Origin: a bacterium | GTDB lineage: Bacteria > JACRDZ01 > JAQUKH01 | Assembly (NCBI GenBank): GCA_028719205.1 | Contig: JAQUKH010000002.1 | Span: forward strand, 32,828-96,827 | Reading direction: 5' to 3' | DNA length: 64,000 nt | Shown: positions 1,781-10,565 of the stretch, in pieces | Layout of the letters: the number at the start of each line of letters is the position of its first letter | Numbering within the stretch: position 1 is the stretch's first letter | Translations under genes and position numbers: made by a program | The notes under the pieces: generated by a model | What the model was told of the DNA's origin: nothing | The model's database searches: none | The model's input: the letters and a program-made list of their open reading frames with translations, nothing else

Positions 1781-4639
1781 TCAGCATATACCCGAAAATT
1801 CACAGTATTTGCAGTTTTGTTCATTGCTTTTGTCGTTTTGGAAATCTATGTTTTTATCAAGGATCTCGGATATAATAAAATCTAATCCCTTGAGGCATGT
1901 TTCCATTACCTTGTCAGTATTCTCCTTATCTTTTTTAACAAAATCCGTAAATTCCATTTCCTGAAGATTATATAAAGCCGCGTTCACAGTTCCGCTGTAT
2001 CTTTGTTTTGTAAAATAATAATAAATCGGCAGTTGAAAAGAATGGATGTTGTTTTTAATGGATTCACGCCCGAATGAAATATTTTCTAATTTTGTTGAAG
2101 CTGCAGGTGCTTTTGCCGATTGCCCTGTTTTATAATCAATTACAAATACTGTTCCATCTTCGAGCAGGTCTATACGGTCTATGGTATATCTGCAATTTAT
2201 CAATTTGCCTGAGGGTAATTGTATTTTCCCTGAAAGTTTTTCTTCAAGTGAAAGGATCGTTTTTACTTCCCGCGACCGTTCATTGTTAATAAATTTTCTA
2301 AGCCTGTATTCCATAACCTCTTTTACCAAAAACGCCTCCGGCCCCAGCCTTTTTTTAAGTTTTTCTAAAAACCGGTTTTCGAATTCCCCGATAAAATATT
2401 TAAGAAAAACATCATCAATAACAGGTTTTTTATTTATAAATCTTTTGAAGGTATTATCAAGCAGTTCATGTATAAATGTGCCGATATCCTTTGCCTCAAC
2501 TTCATCAAGAAGATCTTCTTTTCCTTTAAGCCGTAACACATATTGATAATAAAATTTCATCGGGCAGTTTAAATAAGTGTCAATGCTGGATGATGAATAT
2601 ATAAAATTATCATCAAAATATTTAATTATTTTTTCGGTCTTTTTAACTGTGTTTTTTACTGCTATAGTTACAGGATTAAATTTCGCGCAGGTCTCGGGGA
2701 AAACATTCAGTATTTTGTCCTTTTTTTGCTTCTGCCAGATGAGTTCTTCAAGAAAACGGCTTTTTTCTTTTTCGGGACTGCCGTCATAAACAAAATACAC
2801 TTTCTTTGCTCCAGAGATCAAGCGGGTAAAATGGTATTTCTGGATCTCCTCTTCCTGTCTTAGTTTTTGCAGTCCAAGGCTTTCCATGATCTGGCGCGGT
2901 ATCATTGAACCATGGACTTGAGATCTCGGAAGTATGGATTCATTAACATCCATAATTATTACATTTTCAAAATTTAGCGAGCGGCTTTCAAATAATCCAA
3001 GTATCTGAAGCCCTTTCAAAGGAGAACCGGAAAACGAAACGATTTCGTTCTGTATCTTCTTATCAAAGACCTTAAATATATCTTCTTTATTAAAAGGCTG
3101 GTCTTTGAACTCGGCAGTTTTTAATTCATCGATTATTTCATATATCCTGTTAAGGATTTTTATATTCAAGGGGTAACTGTGAATAAAACTTTTTTTAAGC
3201 AGATAGGTGTTGAATTTTTCCAGGCAGGCGGTAAATTGGGAGAAATTGTTAATGTTTTCCCACATCCTGAAGGAGATCAAATGTATCTCTTCTAAAATAT
3301 TTTTAAACTCCGGTATGCCGGTATTAAAAGCCATTTCCGCGCTTAATTCATAAAGCTTATTTGAGCTTTCTATGTCATCCAGTTTTAAGAACAGGCTTCC
3401 GCTTAAAGAAGTTTCCTTAATTCCCGAAAGGATTTCTTCGGCTTTATGGACAAGTATCCGGGTCAAGGCGGGGTTAGAGTTTATTGTCAGATTTTTTATT
3501 AATGGATGAAGTATAACCTTGAGATAATCCTTGGTATAATAAGCCCCGTTTTTTCGTGTCAGCTGAGCGGCAGCGATAAATTTTATAAGGTTGTATAAAG
3601 CGCTTCGTTTCAAGGGGTAACCCATTGAAACATTAAAATTTTCCACAAGAGGTGAAATTTCCGAGAGCAAAGGTATAAGATTGTTCGCGTCGGGAAGTAT
3701 AATGACGGTTTTATCAAGGGCTTCGCCTTTTTTGATAATCTCGGATCTTAAAATTTCTTTTATAATACCTGCCTGTGAATGGCTGTCAAACCCTTTGAAT
3801 ATTTTTAAATCATATGATGGCTTAGTTTGGTTTACCGGTTCGATCTTATTGTTGAGTTCTTTTTCGAGATTATCGAAAACAGGCCAGGGATTTGAATCTT
3901 TCTGAAAAAAAGCTGTTGCTGTATCTTCACTAAGAAGATGTTTGAGAATTTTTTTTTCTGTATTGTGAAGATAATAAAAATTACAAAAAAGAATTTTATC
4001 AAATTCAGGGAATTTCGTTTTCCTGATAATATTCGCCGCGTCCAGGTATATAATTCCGCGGGAAAGCAGATTGCGGCTTCGCAGTTCAATGTGATATAAA
4101 TTCCTTAATTCAATAATATTCCGGAGCAATTTATTTATATTCTCGGGTATTTCATAACCTATTTCAAAAAGGTCTTCAACAGGTTTAAGGTCCTGCGTGG
4201 AGATATTTTCAATGTCCAGTTCATCTATAAATCCTGTAATTTCTGTTGCCCAAGGAAGAAAATCAGAAAACTTTTCTCTGTGAATCAATATTTTAGAGGA
4301 CAGTTTTTTCGCGCAGGTGTAAATTATATAGCTTGATTCCAGTTCTGACGGCATGCGGAAATTGCCGTGTTTTGACACTATAAAATTCACAAACTGATCG
4401 ATCGAGAAAAATTGCGGAGGAAAAAAAATCCGTTTTATTCTCTTTGAAAGCTCCCTCTTTAAGAATAATGAGGGCCGTTTTCCTCCGAATATAACAGCAA
4501 CACGGCTCAAATCACCGCCTTTTTTTAAAAAATTGTTTTCCAGATAATCCGCGGTATTCGAAATAAAATCTTCAGTGAAATTGCAGGTGATTATTTTTTC
4601 CATTTTATGTAGTATAAATTGAGTTCGGTAAATTTTCAA
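1781..4639 (-). CDS. AddB-like PD-(D/E)XK exonuclease with Fe-S cysteines
   Basis: C-terminal nuclease: SSIDTYLNCPMKFYYQY, VFVIDYKTG, FQLPIYYY, and CKYCEFSGIC (AddB-type 4-Cys arrangement). Confidence 0.8.
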   Translation of the reverse strand: MKIYRTQFILHKMEKIITCNFTEDFISNTADYLENNFLKKGGDLSRVAVIFGGKRPSLFLKRELSKRIKRIFFPPQFFSIDQFVNFIVSKHGNFRMPSELESSYIIYTCAKKLSSKILIHREKFSDFLPWATEITGFIDELDIENISTQDLKPVEDLFEIGYEIPENINKLLRNIIELRNLYHIELRSRNLLSRGIIYLDAANIIRKTKFPEFDKILFCNFYYLHNTEKKILKHLLSEDTATAFFQKDSNPWPVFDNLEKELNNKIEPVNQTKPSYDLKIFKGFDSHSQAGIIKEILRSEIIKKGEALDKTVIILPDANNLIPLLSEISPLVENFNVSMGYPLKRSALYNLIKFIAAAQLTRKNGAYYTKDYLKVILHPLIKNLTINSNPALTRILVHKAEEILSGIKETSLSGSLFLKLDDIESSNKLYELSAEMAFNTGIPEFKNILEEIHLISFRMWENINNFSQFTACLEKFNTYLLKKSFIHSYPLNIKILNRIYEIIDELKTAEFKDQPFNKEDIFKVFDKKIQNEIVSFSGSPLKGLQILGLFESRSLNFENVIIMDVNESILPRSQVHGSMIPRQIMESLGLQKLRQEEEIQKYHFTRLISGAKKVYFVYDGSPEKEKSRFLEELIWQKQKKDKILNVFPETCAKFNPVTIAVKNTVKKTEKIIKYFDDNFIYSSSSIDTYLNCPMKFYYQYVLRLKGKEDLLDEVEAKDIGTFIHELLDNTFKRFINKKPVIDDVFLKYFIGEFENRFLEKLKKRLGPEAFLVKEVMEYRLRKFINNERSREVKTILSLEEKLSGKIQLPSGKLINCRYTIDRIDLLEDGTVFVIDYKTGQSAKAPAASTKLENISFGRESIKNNIHSFQLPIYYYFTKQRYSGTVNAALYNLQEMEFTDFVKKDKENTDKVMETCLKGLDFIISEILDKNIDFQNDKSNEQNCKYCEFSGIC

Positions 4640-4739: not shown

Positions 4740-5822
4740 ATGATAAAAAAGAAAATCAAAGAAGTTATAAACAAGAATGTTAATGAGGGAGAGATTTCTA
4801 AAAAAGCGAATGAGCTGCCAGATAAGAATTTATTCCAGGCAGCGGTTTTAAACGAAATAAGTTATTTAAACAGAAATATTTATGACCTGGAAAATATTCT
4901 GCAATCTATCCTTAACTTACTTCAGGGGATAATTAAATTTGAAATTGGCGTGATCTTTTTAGCGGAAGAAAAAATTATGCTGATCTTCAGCAGGGAGAAA
5001 CAGTCAAATGAAAATAATGAAAAAGCAATAAACACTGCAATAAATAATTTTAATCAATTGGCAGGGCAAAGAATATCTAAAAATGAAATGAAAATAAAAG
5101 TAATTGACAGCGGGAATATTTCCACAAATTCAAATCAATCCATAAATTCATTTATTTTTTCGGAAATTTACGCTAAAAATAATATAATGGGAATTTTAAT
5201 GATCGGTTGTTATCAGGAAAACGCTTATAGTGATATAGACAGCAAGTCCTTAAATTCTTTTGTCACGCACGCTTCAATTGTAATGGATAATGCCCGATTA
5301 TATCAAAAGCTGGAATCTCTAACGGTAATTGATGAATTGACTAAAATCTACAATAAAAGATACCTGGCACAAATTATTCCACAGGAATTAAGCAGGGTCG
5401 AAAGATATAGGCGAACTCTTTCCATAATAATGTTTGATATAGATTTTTTTAAGAAAGTTAATGATGCGTATGGCTGTATTCAGGGAGATATTATTTTAAA
5501 AGAGGTTGTAAAAATAGCCAGGGTTACATTGAGAAAAGTCGATATCCTTATACGTTATGGCGGGGAGGAATTTATTATTCTTTTGCCTGAAGTAAATCTT
5601 GAAATCGCGCAGAATATAGCGGAAAGGATAAGAAAAGCTGTTGAGGTATTTTCCTTTTCCGGGCAAAAAGAACCACTGCGCATCACTATTAGTTTAGGAG
5701 TGACGACTTGTACGAAAGAATTGATAGATGAGGGAGGTAAAAAATTAATTTCAGTCGCTAATGAAGCGCTTTATGAAGCCAAAAAATCAGGACGAAACAG
5801 GGTATGTGTGGCGAAAAAATAA
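4740..5822 (+). CDS. GAF-GGDEF diguanylate cyclase
   Basis: RYGGEEFIILLPE active site with RKVD I-site five residues upstream; N-terminal GAF-like region. Confidence 0.9.
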   Translation: MIKKKIKEVINKNVNEGEISKKANELPDKNLFQAAVLNEISYLNRNIYDLENILQSILNLLQGIIKFEIGVIFLAEEKIMLIFSREKQSNENNEKAINTAINNFNQLAGQRISKNEMKIKVIDSGNISTNSNQSINSFIFSEIYAKNNIMGILMIGCYQENAYSDIDSKSLNSFVTHASIVMDNARLYQKLESLTVIDELTKIYNKRYLAQIIPQELSRVERYRRTLSIIMFDIDFFKKVNDAYGCIQGDIILKEVVKIARVTLRKVDILIRYGGEEFIILLPEVNLEIAQNIAERIRKAVEVFSFSGQKEPLRITISLGVTTCTKELIDEGGKKLISVANEALYEAKKSGRNRVCVAKK

Positions 5823-5886
5823 AACATGACCCTAAGCCCTTAAAAACCGATAAGTCTAGTATATTGCTAAATAATAAGGTGAAATA

Positions 5887-6423
5887 ATGAGCGACCAAAA
5901 AAAGAAAAAAGATCCTTTAGAAGAATATCTCTCGTTTGTCAGGCACGAACTGCGTAATCAATTGTTTGTGGTTCGTGAAGGGATAAGCCAGGTCATAGAC
6001 GGGTTAGGAGGTAAAGATTGTGCTAAATGCGCTAAAATTTTACAGCCTTCTTTGGAGACTGCTGAGAATTTCAACAAGTCTATAAGTGAGTTGTTAAACG
6101 ATCCCGCCTTCGAGAAAATACTAAAAAAACAATTTAAGGATAAATCGGAAACTGAAAATTTAGAAATATCGAAAAATGAGCTTATGGGACTTATAAATCA
6201 TATAATTCGTACGCCGTTGACTATGATTAAAGAAGGTTTATCTATAGTAGTGGATGAGATACCCGGGAAGCTAACGTTAGAACAAAAAAAGTATCTTAAT
6301 GCCGCGAAAGAAAACACTGATAATTTAATTGTGTCTATTGAAAAGATTTTGTCAACTCCCCTGGAAAAGATACCAAGCCTTTTAGGGGAAGATGTGCAGT
6401 ATAAAATAGAATATAAAAAATAG
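5887..6423 (+). CDS. Tandem DHp (HisKA-like) protein lacking a HATPase domain
   Basis: Two H-box-like segments, FVRHELRNQLFVVREGISQVIDG and LINHIIRTPLTMIKEGLSIVVDEIPG; ORF ends at 178 aa with no N/G boxes. Confidence 0.7.
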   Translation: MSDQKKKKDPLEEYLSFVRHELRNQLFVVREGISQVIDGLGGKDCAKCAKILQPSLETAENFNKSISELLNDPAFEKILKKQFKDKSETENLEISKNELMGLINHIIRTPLTMIKEGLSIVVDEIPGKLTLEQKKYLNAAKENTDNLIVSIEKILSTPLEKIPSLLGEDVQYKIEYKK

Positions 6424-6435
6424 CCGGAGGGTGTA

Positions 6436-6801
6436 ATGAAAAAAATACTGGTAGTTGATGATGAAACTATGATAAGAGAGATGGTCAAGACAAGGCTGGA
6501 GGCAAACAATTATGAAGTTATTACTGCCGGTGATGGCCAGGAGGCACTTGAAAAAGTACGCCGGGAGAATCCTGATTTGATCCTTCTTGATTTAATGCTG
6601 CCTAAAGTTAACGGTTATAAAGTTTGCAGGATGCTTAAATTTGATGACAAATATAAGAAAATTCCTATAATCATGCTTACCGCGCGCACGGCGGAAGATG
6701 ATATTAAAGCTGGAAAAGAAGTCGGCGCGGACTTGTATTTAACAAAACCTTTTGATTCAAAAATTCTTTTAGAAAAAATAGAAGAACTTTTAAAAAAATG
6801 A
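6436..6801 (+). CDS. Stand-alone response regulator receiver protein
   Basis: ILVVDDE, LILLDLMLP, MLTA, YLTKPF all intact. Confidence 0.95.
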   Translation: MKKILVVDDETMIREMVKTRLEANNYEVITAGDGQEALEKVRRENPDLILLDLMLPKVNGYKVCRMLKFDDKYKKIPIIMLTARTAEDDIKAGKEVGADLYLTKPFDSKILLEKIEELLKK

Positions 6802-7193
6802 GCATAGGAGATAAAATGGCAGGTAAAATACTTATTGTTCAGGATAACCGGCTGATAAACAAGATGATAAAATCCCGTCTTGATTCCAATGGATTTTCAG
6901 CTGATATATGCGAGACAGGAGAAGAAGGCGTTGAAAAAGCAAAGACTGATAATTATCAGCTTGTTCTATTGGATTGCACCCTTCCGGGGATCAGTGGTGT
7001 GGAAGTGTGCCGATTTATAAAAAAGGAAGAAAAATTTAAAAATATTCCGATTATTTTTATGTCGGGTGAAGATGAAGATAAACTGATTAATATTGTAAAA
7101 AATGAAGGTGCTGATGGTTATATTTCGCTTGCATCCGGTTTTGAAGGCAAAGAATTTATTAATACAATAAAAAAATTTTTAGAAAAGGAGTGA
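6798..7193 (+). CDS. Degenerate stand-alone receiver domain protein
   Basis: REC fold pattern, but ILIVQDN replaces VVDDE and YISLASGF replaces YLTKPF; 4-bp overlap with the upstream receiver gene; the start may be the internal Met (MAGKILIV). Confidence 0.8.
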   Translation: MSIGDKMAGKILIVQDNRLINKMIKSRLDSNGFSADICETGEEGVEKAKTDNYQLVLLDCTLPGISGVEVCRFIKKEEKFKNIPIIFMSGEDEDKLINIVKNEGADGYISLASGFEGKEFINTIKKFLEKE

Positions 7194-7197
7194 AAAT

Positions 7198-7383
7198 ATG
7201 CCGGTAGTAAACATTCAGATCTTAAAAGGCCGGTCTCAAGAACAAAAAAAGAAAATGGCCAAGACAGTAACAGATGCCATTGTTTCTTCGATTGGGGTAA
7301 AGCCTGAAGCAGTGTGGATCGTTATAGAGGAAATGGAAAGAGAAAATTTTGCGACGGGCGGGGTTTTGCATTGCGAAAAATAA
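7198..7383 (+). CDS. 4-oxalocrotonate tautomerase family protein
   Basis: 61 aa, Pro after initiator Met (MPVVNIQILKGRSQEQKKKMAKTVTDAI). Confidence 0.85.
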   Translation: MPVVNIQILKGRSQEQKKKMAKTVTDAIVSSIGVKPEAVWIVIEEMERENFATGGVLHCEK

Positions 7384-7388
7384 TAAAG

Positions 7389-10300
7389 TTATGCAACTTC
7401 TTCCACTTCAGCTTCTTCCAGAAACATGGCAAATCCTTTTATCTGTTTTTCAGGAAATAATTCTTTAACCAAACCGGCATAAATATCGATCTGTTCCTTA
7501 TAATTTAAGGAAGATTCAGATTTTGTTTTGTATTCGACTATCCATACTTCTTTTTCCCTGACGATGAGGCGGTCGATCCTTTTTGTGTTCCCTAAGCGGT
7601 CGACAATATCTTTTTCGAGATAAACTTTACCATCAGAGATATAAAAAAACTTCCGCAGATCATTATTTTTGACAAGTTTAGTTATTATCGATGAAAATTC
7701 AGAATAGTCCGTAATGCCCGGAAATAAATTACGCGCCTTTGAAGCGCCTTTTTTTATCGCATCGTCTAAATTCTGATGTTCAAGATTTTCTATTGAACTT
7801 AGCATCTCATGCAGAAAATTCCCTTTTAATACTTTATCCCTGTTCCTGATCGAATTAACATCCAAAAAATCTTCTTTTATAAATTCTATCCATTCTTTAT
7901 ATTCAGGCAAAGATAAAGTTATGTATGATGTTTTGTCATCCGATTCCGTAAAGTATTCATGCCTTTCCCCTTTATTATAAATATTTTCAGGAATAAGGTA
8001 TTTTGCAGTATTTGCGGTTCTTAATTCTCCATTTTTATCAGCGGACTTTTTAAAAGAAAACGGTATAAAAATATAAAGTTCGTTTTTCGCCCTCGTCAAG
8101 GAAACGTAAAGAGTGTTGAGTTCATCTATAAAAGTTTTTTTGTATTCTTCCGTGTGCATGGAAGCTATCTGATCTGATAGCTGCGCGTATTTTTTATCCA
8201 GTCTGACAAGTGAGAGGTTTTCGGGATCTTTATCAATGAAGCTTATATTTTGTTTTTTATTTGACTTAAAATGTTTCATATCAAACTCCAAAAAAGGAAT
8301 TATAACTGTTCCGAATCCGAGGCCCTTGGATTTATGGATCGTCATAACTTTTATCGCGTCTACACCCTTCACGTTGACAAAAATGCTTTTATTATTCAGC
8401 CCTTTAAAATATTCAAGAAAATCAGTTATCCCGTTATAATCTTTTTCGCCTTCTTTTATCATTTGGAGAAAATGTATAAAAAACGCCTGCTGGTAAGGGA
8501 AGTTTTTAAATACATTAAATTTTTTATAAATTTCAATCACAAATTCATATAATTCGGTAAATCCTACGGTTTTAAAGAAATTATCTATCAGGTTGTTCCA
8601 GATATCGGGGTACATATTTTGAAATTCGCGGTAAATATAATGATCGTTTTTTGTTGAAGAATTTTCTCTGAGCGCAAAAAGGAAATTTTCAATTATTTTT
8701 TTATCAATACCGGACTCCTTTAAAAAAATATTTCCCATTATAAAAGACGCGAAAGAAAGATTATCTATTGGTGAATTCAGGAATTTAAGGAACGAGGTAA
8801 GCTCATTAATGAAAACATTGTTTTTTATATTTAGCGTTTTATCAGATTCCACAGGGATATTTTTATCTATCAGCCAACCGCTTACGGTTTCCACGTACTC
8901 ATTCTCGCGGCACAGGATCGCGATGTCTTTTAGGCCTGCGCGGTTCCGTGTTTTCAGCTGTTCTATAAGGTTTAAAAGCTTTTCCTTGATGATTTCATAT
9001 TTTTCATCCTTGTCGGTAATTTCAACAGCCTCGGCCCTGACAAATCCGTATTGATATTTGTCATCCTTTCTGTATTTTTGTTCCGCGCGGGAAAATATAT
9101 TGAGAATCTCCTCGATACAGGTTTTACTGAAATTCCGAAGATCATCATCCTCGTTTTGCTGATATTCGATAAACCGCTTTAGATTATTTTCCGCGAATAT
9201 ACTGTTCGTAAATTCTACAATTTCTTTCTGGCTGCGGTAATTTGTGTTAAGATAATTTTCTTTTACATATTCGGGATAAGTGTTCTTTATTTCATCAAAT
9301 AAGGAACACTCGCCTCCGCGGAACCGGAAAATCGCCTGTTTTTTATCGCCCACGTAGAAAAAGCTTCCTCCGGTTGAAAGAATTTCCTCGATCATTATCT
9401 CAAAATTCTGCCATTGTAGAACGCTTGTATCCTGAAATTCGTCGATCAGAAAATGCCTTATGCGCGTCGAAAGCCTGTAATAAAGTTCAGGGACATTGAT
9501 CTCGTTTTGCCTGATCAGTAAATGTGCCTGTTCATTGAGTTCGCCAAGGAACAATAAATCATTTTTTCTCGCGTTCCGCCTGAAAATGTCATAGACCATG
9601 TCAAAAATATCAATATAGCAATTAAAAAATGCTGCCGACTCTTTTTCTGAAACTCTGATTATTTCTCTGTGGATATTTTCCCAAAGTTTGATAAGCTCGT
9701 CCGGTATAGTTTTATTTTTCAGGGCAGGCAGTTCATCTTTTAAAAATGATTTTTTTCCGATATCGGCAAAATCAAAATTGTCTTTGTTGTTTTGAACAAA
9801 ATTATTTAACGTTTTTCGGAAAGTTCCATTAATGTCAGGAGTCATTTTATTATTCAGGTCCCGGTAAAGTTTAAGCAAGGCGCGTTTTGATATTAATATG
9901 TTTTCGCCTTTCAGGTCAAACTTCTGGAAATTCTTGCCGTAAGTATTTTTCCGCGAGTACATTGAATTGATCAGGTTCAAAATATCTTTTTTCGGGATCC
10001 AGCCGGCCTTGTTTTCAAGGTATAAATATTGGTGCAGAAAATTATTGAAAATATCCCTGGTGGTTTTGTCATGGTTAGCTTTGTCAATACATTCATCCAG
10101 GCTGTATAAAAGAAGAGGTAAATGATCGTCCCTGATCTCAAAATTAGAGGATATGTTCAGCCTGAACGCGCAGCTTATCAGGATCTTATTAATAAAACTA
10201 TCGATAGTCTGGACCTGAAGAAAGTTGTAATTGGCAAGGATGTAGTCCATCAGGTACTGAGCCTTTTTTTGTATATTTGTTGTATTACATATACTTTCTA

Positions 10301-10565
10301 AAACAGAATTTTTTTCTTCAGGGCTTGAAAATTTATTAAGGGCGATCTTCCTTAAGGTTTCCAGTATCCTTTCCTTCATTTCAGCCGCCGCTTTGTTCGT
10401 GAACGTAATAGCGAGGATATTTTCGATTTGCTTCGGATCAGATCCTTCCTTGAATAGCAGGCTTAAATAATGTCTGGCAAGCGCGTAAGTTTTCCCCGAC
10501 CCCGCGGACGCTTCGACGACATGAACACAGGGATTATCGGGAATTGGTTCAAATAAACTATTCAT
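7389..10565 (-). CDS. AddA/RecB-like UvrD-family helicase-nuclease
   Basis: Walker A EASAGSGKTYALARHY, LIDEFQDTS, C-terminal nuclease RIDRLIV...WIVEYKT...YKEQIDIYA. Confidence 0.85.
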   Translation of the reverse strand: MNSLFEPIPDNPCVHVVEASAGSGKTYALARHYLSLLFKEGSDPKQIENILAITFTNKAAAEMKERILETLRKIALNKFSSPEEKNSVLESICNTTNIQKKAQYLMDYILANYNFLQVQTIDSFINKILISCAFRLNISSNFEIRDDHLPLLLYSLDECIDKANHDKTTRDIFNNFLHQYLYLENKAGWIPKKDILNLINSMYSRKNTYGKNFQKFDLKGENILISKRALLKLYRDLNNKMTPDINGTFRKTLNNFVQNNKDNFDFADIGKKSFLKDELPALKNKTIPDELIKLWENIHREIIRVSEKESAAFFNCYIDIFDMVYDIFRRNARKNDLLFLGELNEQAHLLIRQNEINVPELYYRLSTRIRHFLIDEFQDTSVLQWQNFEIMIEEILSTGGSFFYVGDKKQAIFRFRGGECSLFDEIKNTYPEYVKENYLNTNYRSQKEIVEFTNSIFAENNLKRFIEYQQNEDDDLRNFSKTCIEEILNIFSRAEQKYRKDDKYQYGFVRAEAVEITDKDEKYEIIKEKLLNLIEQLKTRNRAGLKDIAILCRENEYVETVSGWLIDKNIPVESDKTLNIKNNVFINELTSFLKFLNSPIDNLSFASFIMGNIFLKESGIDKKIIENFLFALRENSSTKNDHYIYREFQNMYPDIWNNLIDNFFKTVGFTELYEFVIEIYKKFNVFKNFPYQQAFFIHFLQMIKEGEKDYNGITDFLEYFKGLNNKSIFVNVKGVDAIKVMTIHKSKGLGFGTVIIPFLEFDMKHFKSNKKQNISFIDKDPENLSLVRLDKKYAQLSDQIASMHTEEYKKTFIDELNTLYVSLTRAKNELYIFIPFSFKKSADKNGELRTANTAKYLIPENIYNKGERHEYFTESDDKTSYITLSLPEYKEWIEFIKEDFLDVNSIRNRDKVLKGNFLHEMLSSIENLEHQNLDDAIKKGASKARNLFPGITDYSEFSSIITKLVKNNDLRKFFYISDGKVYLEKDIVDRLGNTKRIDRLIVREKEVWIVEYKTKSESSLNYKEQIDIYAGLVKELFPEKQIKGFAMFLEEAEVEEVA

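Follow-up and report, generated by a model that had tools for sequence, protein, structure and literature searches.

A candidate single-chain tandem DHp protein encoded with two free receivers and a receiver-less GAF-GGDEF cyclase

Among the systems that come closest to the locus described here is Spo0B, whose partner is the single-domain receiver Spo0F. In Spo0B and in ChpT the bundle is built from two hairpins, and ChpT functions without autophosphorylation from ATP (PMC3433190). Two engineered proteins are also relevant, namely EnvZ[A], which is a DHp without ATPase, and EnvZ[AAB], which has two tandem DHps in one chain; in one later study, isolated EnvZ[A] showed no apparent phosphatase activity (PMC8971529). 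The activities of HisKA proteins depend on separable residues: the acid that follows the His is required for kinase and not for phosphatase activity, while a Thr or Asn at H+4 is required for phosphatase and not for kinase activity (PMC3510030). On the receiver side, a pseudo-receiver has been defined as a receiver fold that is missing one or more of the five active-site residues (PMC12632262).

Here, we describe five plus-strand genes at positions 4740-7383 of a 64,000-nucleotide stretch of DNA from a bacterium of a little-known phylum (the window, G000:C2:32828-96827), taken from a 2.59-Mb draft genome that is 93% complete. The closest comparison genomes are those of one congener (G001) and two further members of the phylum. 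In order, the genes encode a predicted GAF-GGDEF diguanylate cyclase, a 178-residue tandem DHp protein, a canonical receiver (REC1), a pseudo-receiver (REC2) and a 61-residue 4-oxalocrotonate tautomerase-like protein (7198..7383; NCBIfam tautomerase, E = 1.6e-20). The intergenic gaps are 64, 12, 14 and 4 nt, a purine-rich stretch precedes the start of each gene, the codon usage of all five resembles that of their long neighbours, and no terminator-like site was found on the plus strand between 4560 and 7460. The cassette is likely one operon, and the tautomerase-like gene, which starts 4 nt past REC2, is probably co-transcribed with the rest. This last gene has no obvious link to signalling. 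The cassette is flanked by AddB-like and RecB-like (AddA-like) genes (window 1781-4639 and 7389-10565).

The 178-residue protein (5887..6423) had been read in a preliminary description as two HisKA-like hairpins with no HATPase domain, and both points hold up. The Pfam HisKA profile matches residues 96-155 (E = 1.8e-7), which correspond to the second hairpin, DHp2; the first, DHp1, does not reach the Pfam cut-off. Pfam finds neither a HATPase domain in the ORF nor a match to the Hpt profile PF01627, so that of the two families against which a check had been proposed, HisKA is recovered and Hpt is not. DHp1 lies at 5914..6096, with the His20 codon at 5944-5946 in the motif H-E-L-R-N-Q-L, and DHp2 at 6151..6354, with the His105 codon at 6199-6201 in the motif H-I-I-R-T-P-L. 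Residues 13-78 align with residues 97-162 almost without gaps, at 34% identity and with a local score of 94, as compared to a mean of 26.4 (sd 4.7, maximum 48) in 2000 shuffles. As judged from this repeat, DHp1 is a diverged copy of a DHp2-type hairpin. Compared on its own, DHp1 finds HisKA domains in further kinases of its genome and, weakly, T. maritima HK853 (E = 0.025-0.3). In a tree built from HisKA domains, the two hairpins join with a bootstrap value of 98 but an SH-aLRT value of only 40, a grouping that is consistent with internal duplication without being strong proof of it. The best match of DHp2 is the DHp of a kinase on contig C40 of the same genome, at 37-39% identity. Outside the protein itself, DHp1 has one of its best matches in a HisKA kinase on contig C33; there, the kinase, a CheR-like gene and a Lys-less receiver adjoin a chemotaxis cluster (G000:C33, 7210-9171 and 5932-6309).

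AlphaFold predicts two hairpins in one chain for the 178-residue protein (pLDDT 78, and a moderate pTM of 0.65), with helices at residues 10-38 and 43-70 (DHp1), 73-84, and 89-122 and 131-156 (DHp2). The input alignment contained HisKA rows that cover DHp2 only. A second run, on the DHp-REC1 read-through product and with receiver rows only, gave nearly the same helices, and the hairpin prediction is therefore independent of the HisKA rows. The final 12 residues are predicted to be disordered, and there is no C-terminal degenerate Bergerat-fold domain. Folds other than DHp hairpins, which would have spoken against the preliminary description, thus appeared in neither run; of the hairpin-receiver complexes that it had proposed for prediction, the linked DHp-REC1 model has no confident interface (pTM 0.48). 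A Foldseek search of the PDB returned generic helical bundles with no close match (best E 0.06), including single-chain four-helix designs such as the ROP dimer re-engineered as one chain. Because solved kinase bundles consist of two chains, generic single-chain matches are what would be expected for an intramolecular bundle, and this outcome is not strong support for such a predicted bundle. At 6421-6435, four codons separate the TAG stop of the gene from the REC1 start, and the two reading frames agree. Read-through of the TAG would yield a DHp-DHp-REC fusion; such agreement of frames arises by chance in one case out of three.

Both hairpins keep their His together with an Asn or Thr at H+4. 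DHp1 retains both the H+1 acid and the H+4 Asn (Asn24), and has lost the Pro of the H-box; DHp2 retains His105 and Thr109, and its H+1 acid is gone. By their identity, these remaining residues would fit a protein engaged in phosphotransfer and phosphatase action. Since the protein has no ATPase domain, any phosphorylation derived from ATP would need another protein. The genome has 34 HATPase_c places, none at this locus. HisKA adjoins 29 of them, and the remainder comprises a pair of CheA proteins, two ORFs (on contigs C26 and C29) and one contig-edge piece; no stand-alone HATPase partner for the 178-residue protein was recognised. Hpt domains were found only in the two CheA proteins, as counted with one Pfam model in this 93%-complete genome, even though hybrid kinases are present as well, and a DHp-type relay protein would therefore have customers. 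This argument from missing Hpt proteins is circumstantial.

REC1 (6436..6801; 121 residues; Pfam Response_reg, E = 8.9e-31) is a single-domain receiver with all five canonical residues (D8, D9, D52, T82 and K104), and so is indeed the intact receiver that had been placed directly downstream. Its closest relative, at 69% identity (dN 0.23, dS 1.74), is encoded at one end of contig C48 of the same genome. This paralogue precedes a PilB-type ATPase that carries MshEN at its N-terminus (G000:C48:6000-14012), and MshEN domains bind c-di-GMP. The contig breaks within the start of the REC1-like receiver.

REC2 (6816..7193; 125 residues from the better start; Response_reg, E = 4.8e-21) has Q9-D10 in place of the acid-acid pair and L105 in place of the Lys, just as the loss of one acidic residue and the Lys had been reported, and it retains Ser83 and the phospho-acceptor Asp, D53. 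On these residues, REC2 is classed as a pseudo-receiver in the sense given above (PMC12632262). It forms a clade (SH-aLRT 99) with two Lys-to-Leu receivers, one on contig C33 of its own genome, which is its best outside match, and one on contig C4 of the congener; these read 'YISLPF' / 'YINLPF' at the expected Lys position, with 84% identity between the two (dN 0.08 vs dS 1.02). Since REC2 shares its Lys loss with this conserved pair from two congeneric genomes, the loss is ancestral and old in the group rather than decay. The change of acid to Gln (Q9) is special to the REC2 of the window within this Lys-less group. The reported 4-bp overlap of the two receivers is probably incorrect. The ATG at 6798 that opens the longer ORF has no Shine-Dalgarno sequence, while that at 6816 has AGGAG at 6806-6810, which leaves a 14-nt gap between REC1 and REC2. 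The true start is probably 6816, with the overlap an artefact of start-site choice.

The reading of the locus as a tandem DHp protein without ATPase, next to one canonical receiver (REC1) and one pseudo-receiver (REC2), thus stands, but it overlooked the neighbouring cyclase, the most informative of the adjacent genes. This 360-residue GAF-GGDEF protein (4740..5822; Pfam GGDEF, E = 1.4e-42) has a GGEEF motif and an RxxD I-site. It is 56% identical, over 357 codons, to a REC-GAF-GGDEF protein encoded on contig C16 of the same genome, and it likewise resembles the last two-thirds of such proteins in the congener (G001:C22, 52%) and in the two further genomes (G003:C113, 50-51%; G002:C105, 35-37%). 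The alignment begins directly past the receiver of the REC-GAF-GGDEF proteins (residue 129), and no receiver relic was found upstream of the window gene. By this alignment, the window protein is a paralogue of a receiver-controlled cyclase, minus the receiver. All four REC-GAF-GGDEF genes sit in Wsp-like operons (CheW, CheA-REC, CheB, REC-GAF-GGDEF and CheR), with the domains checked by Pfam for the C16 operon only (G000:C16:7000-20000); an MCP belongs to the operon in G000, G001 and G003, and did not appear in the part of the G002 locus that was covered. A Wsp-like chemosensory operon is therefore a feature of four of four genomes of this small phylum. The cassette looks like a c-di-GMP module with its receivers encoded in trans, in which the neighbouring cyclase likely provides a c-di-GMP output, and we infer that REC1, REC2 and the tandem DHp protein act on it. 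The paralogy suggests that c-di-GMP output has moved from in-cis to in-trans receiver control.

No homologue of the 178-residue protein was found in 386 genomes, no orthologous tandem DHp gene in the phylum or on plasmids, and no orthologue in a scan of GTDB contigs that reached close relatives only. The protein is a singleton so far, known from a single genome. In the congener, the RecB-like and AddB-like genes enclose, at the syntenic position, a single unrelated 241-residue gene in place of the cassette. The gene neighbourhood, whose conservation in relatives had been proposed as a check, is thus not conserved in the congener; nor did that site or the 386 genomes yield a homologue with a HATPase domain, which would have made the protein a truncation. 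The cassette was either gained in the source genome or lost in the congener, and genes may be exchanged readily at this site. Since paralogues of the GGDEF protein, REC1 and REC2 occur in the same genome, the cassette could plausibly have been put together from local genes. Three other short HisKA ORFs of the phylum were considered and set aside. Those at G003:C143 and G002:C230 resemble full-length small kinases whose C-terminus is ATPase-like, and the one at G000:C51 is a contig-edge piece that reads as KdpD-like. The latter ORF (1-287) ends in a HisKA-like hairpin with Tyr replacing the His and has no HATPase domain; it is possibly a KdpD-like remnant or regulator. In the open literature, we found no direct precedent for HisKA-only or tandem-HisKA proteins. 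To our knowledge, the kinase-less tandem hairpin arrangement is otherwise known only from engineered proteins.

From the architecture, key residues, gene order, paralogy and predicted bundle, we infer a scheme of phosphotransfer, phosphatase action and control. The 178-residue protein would be a single-chain DHp pseudo-dimer that serves as an ATP-independent phosphotransferase/phosphatase on REC1, with c-di-GMP as the output; we advance this reading tentatively, giving it a little short of an even chance. Its two hairpins would pack as one four-helix bundle, in the manner of two kinase subunits. Unable to phosphorylate itself from ATP, the protein would exchange phosphoryl groups with REC1 or strip them from it, with the positions of His20/His105 and Asn24/Thr109 carrying out the phospho-steps, and the receivers of hybrid kinases elsewhere might be further partners. 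REC1 would then control, in trans, the neighbouring cyclase that lacks an in-cis receiver, and REC2 could act as a phosphorylation-poor adaptor, like the second receiver of PleD.

Perhaps no phosphate passes through the 178-residue protein at all, and its hairpins instead enter the dimer of a complete kinase and thereby block or redirect it. There is a precedent in RetS, which swaps the DHp interface of the GacS homodimer for a heterodimeric one (PMC12148439), and DHp2 resembles the DHp of the C40 kinase. However, the covalently linked hairpins are predicted to complete their interface within the one chain, the gene neighbours are receivers and not a kinase, and a decoy would have no need of the two phospho-accepting His residues, both of which are retained; such a role seems unlikely. 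It is also difficult to see why the His and the Asn/Thr would be kept if the bundle merely gathers REC1, REC2 and the cyclase, so that the cyclase is controlled by assembly and not by phosphate flow. The co-location of the gene with the GGDEF gene and two receivers would be explained by such a scaffold, as would the presence of REC2, which as a pseudo-receiver probably acts through contacts with other proteins, but the linked DHp-REC1 model has no docking signal, and we regard this as the least probable of the alternatives.

The gene might, on the other hand, have no function: a truncated kinase gene with a duplicated DHp, on its way out. The failure of every search to find homologues, the absence of the gene from the congener and the strong divergence of DHp1 (branch length 2.06 in the HisKA tree) are all as expected for a remnant. 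A truncated kinase with a HATPase relic can nevertheless be ruled out, since there is no relic and REC1 begins 12 nt past the stop codon, which leaves no room for one. Moreover, the ORF is intact, with a ribosome-binding site and coding-like codon usage, the operon spacing is tight, the hairpin fold, His and Asn/Thr are retained in both halves, and second codon positions are better conserved than third between the halves (0.62 vs 0.34). A dying gene is accordingly quite improbable, though less so than a scaffold.

The pseudo-dimer reading can also be extended to a broader statement, namely that a duplicated kinase hairpin has replaced HPt, giving a natural monomeric, ATP-independent phosphotransferase/phosphatase through which a free receiver is coupled to a cyclase that lost its own, with a Wsp-like output rewired in trans. 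We consider this extension doubtful, if less so than the decoy.

How would such a protein relate to known systems? Spo0B and ChpT show that kinases can become relays, and yet both remain dimeric and have kept a dead ATPase-like domain. A tandem DHp protein that works as a single chain would go further along the kinase-to-relay route, as the natural equivalent of the engineered EnvZ A-A arrangement, and would illustrate how kinase parts could give rise to a monomeric HPt-like bundle; the protein is also small, soluble and easy to test. As compared to a HisKA histidine kinase, it has the DHp and the phospho-accepting His and lacks the HATPase_c catalytic domain. With Spo0B and ChpT it shares HisKA-like hairpins, a phospho-accepting His and independence of ATP, and it may share their four-helix bundle, which is predicted here at moderate confidence and with no close PDB match. 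Those proteins are homodimers with one hairpin per chain and a C-terminal degenerate ATPase-like domain, whereas the 178-residue protein joins its two hairpins covalently and ends without any such domain. EnvZ[A] is likewise an ATPase-less DHp and EnvZ[AAB] a single-chain tandem; both, however, are man-made, and EnvZ[AAB] keeps one ATPase domain, while the 178-residue protein is natural, with non-identical hairpins and no ATPase. If the predicted model is right, the protein resembles HPt (PF01627) in being a monomeric four-helix bundle with a His, but differs in its HisKA sequence, its duplicated hairpin and the lack of any Hpt match. RetS, the GacS antagonist, offers a DHp that contacts another kinase, but is a full membrane protein with further domains. 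In PleD (REC - pseudo-REC - GGDEF), a canonical receiver, a degenerate receiver and a GGDEF domain also form one unit; there they share one chain, while the window has three separate ORFs with the tandem DHp gene between them, and REC2 derives from a distinct group of Lys-less receivers in its genome. Finally, as regards the Wsp-type chemosensory system (WspR), the GAF-GGDEF protein is paralogous to the REC-GGDEF output of the Wsp-like operon in its own genome (CheW, MCP, CheA-REC, CheB, REC-GAF-GGDEF and CheR-TPR), but unlike that output, the window cyclase has no receiver and lies outside a chemosensory operon.
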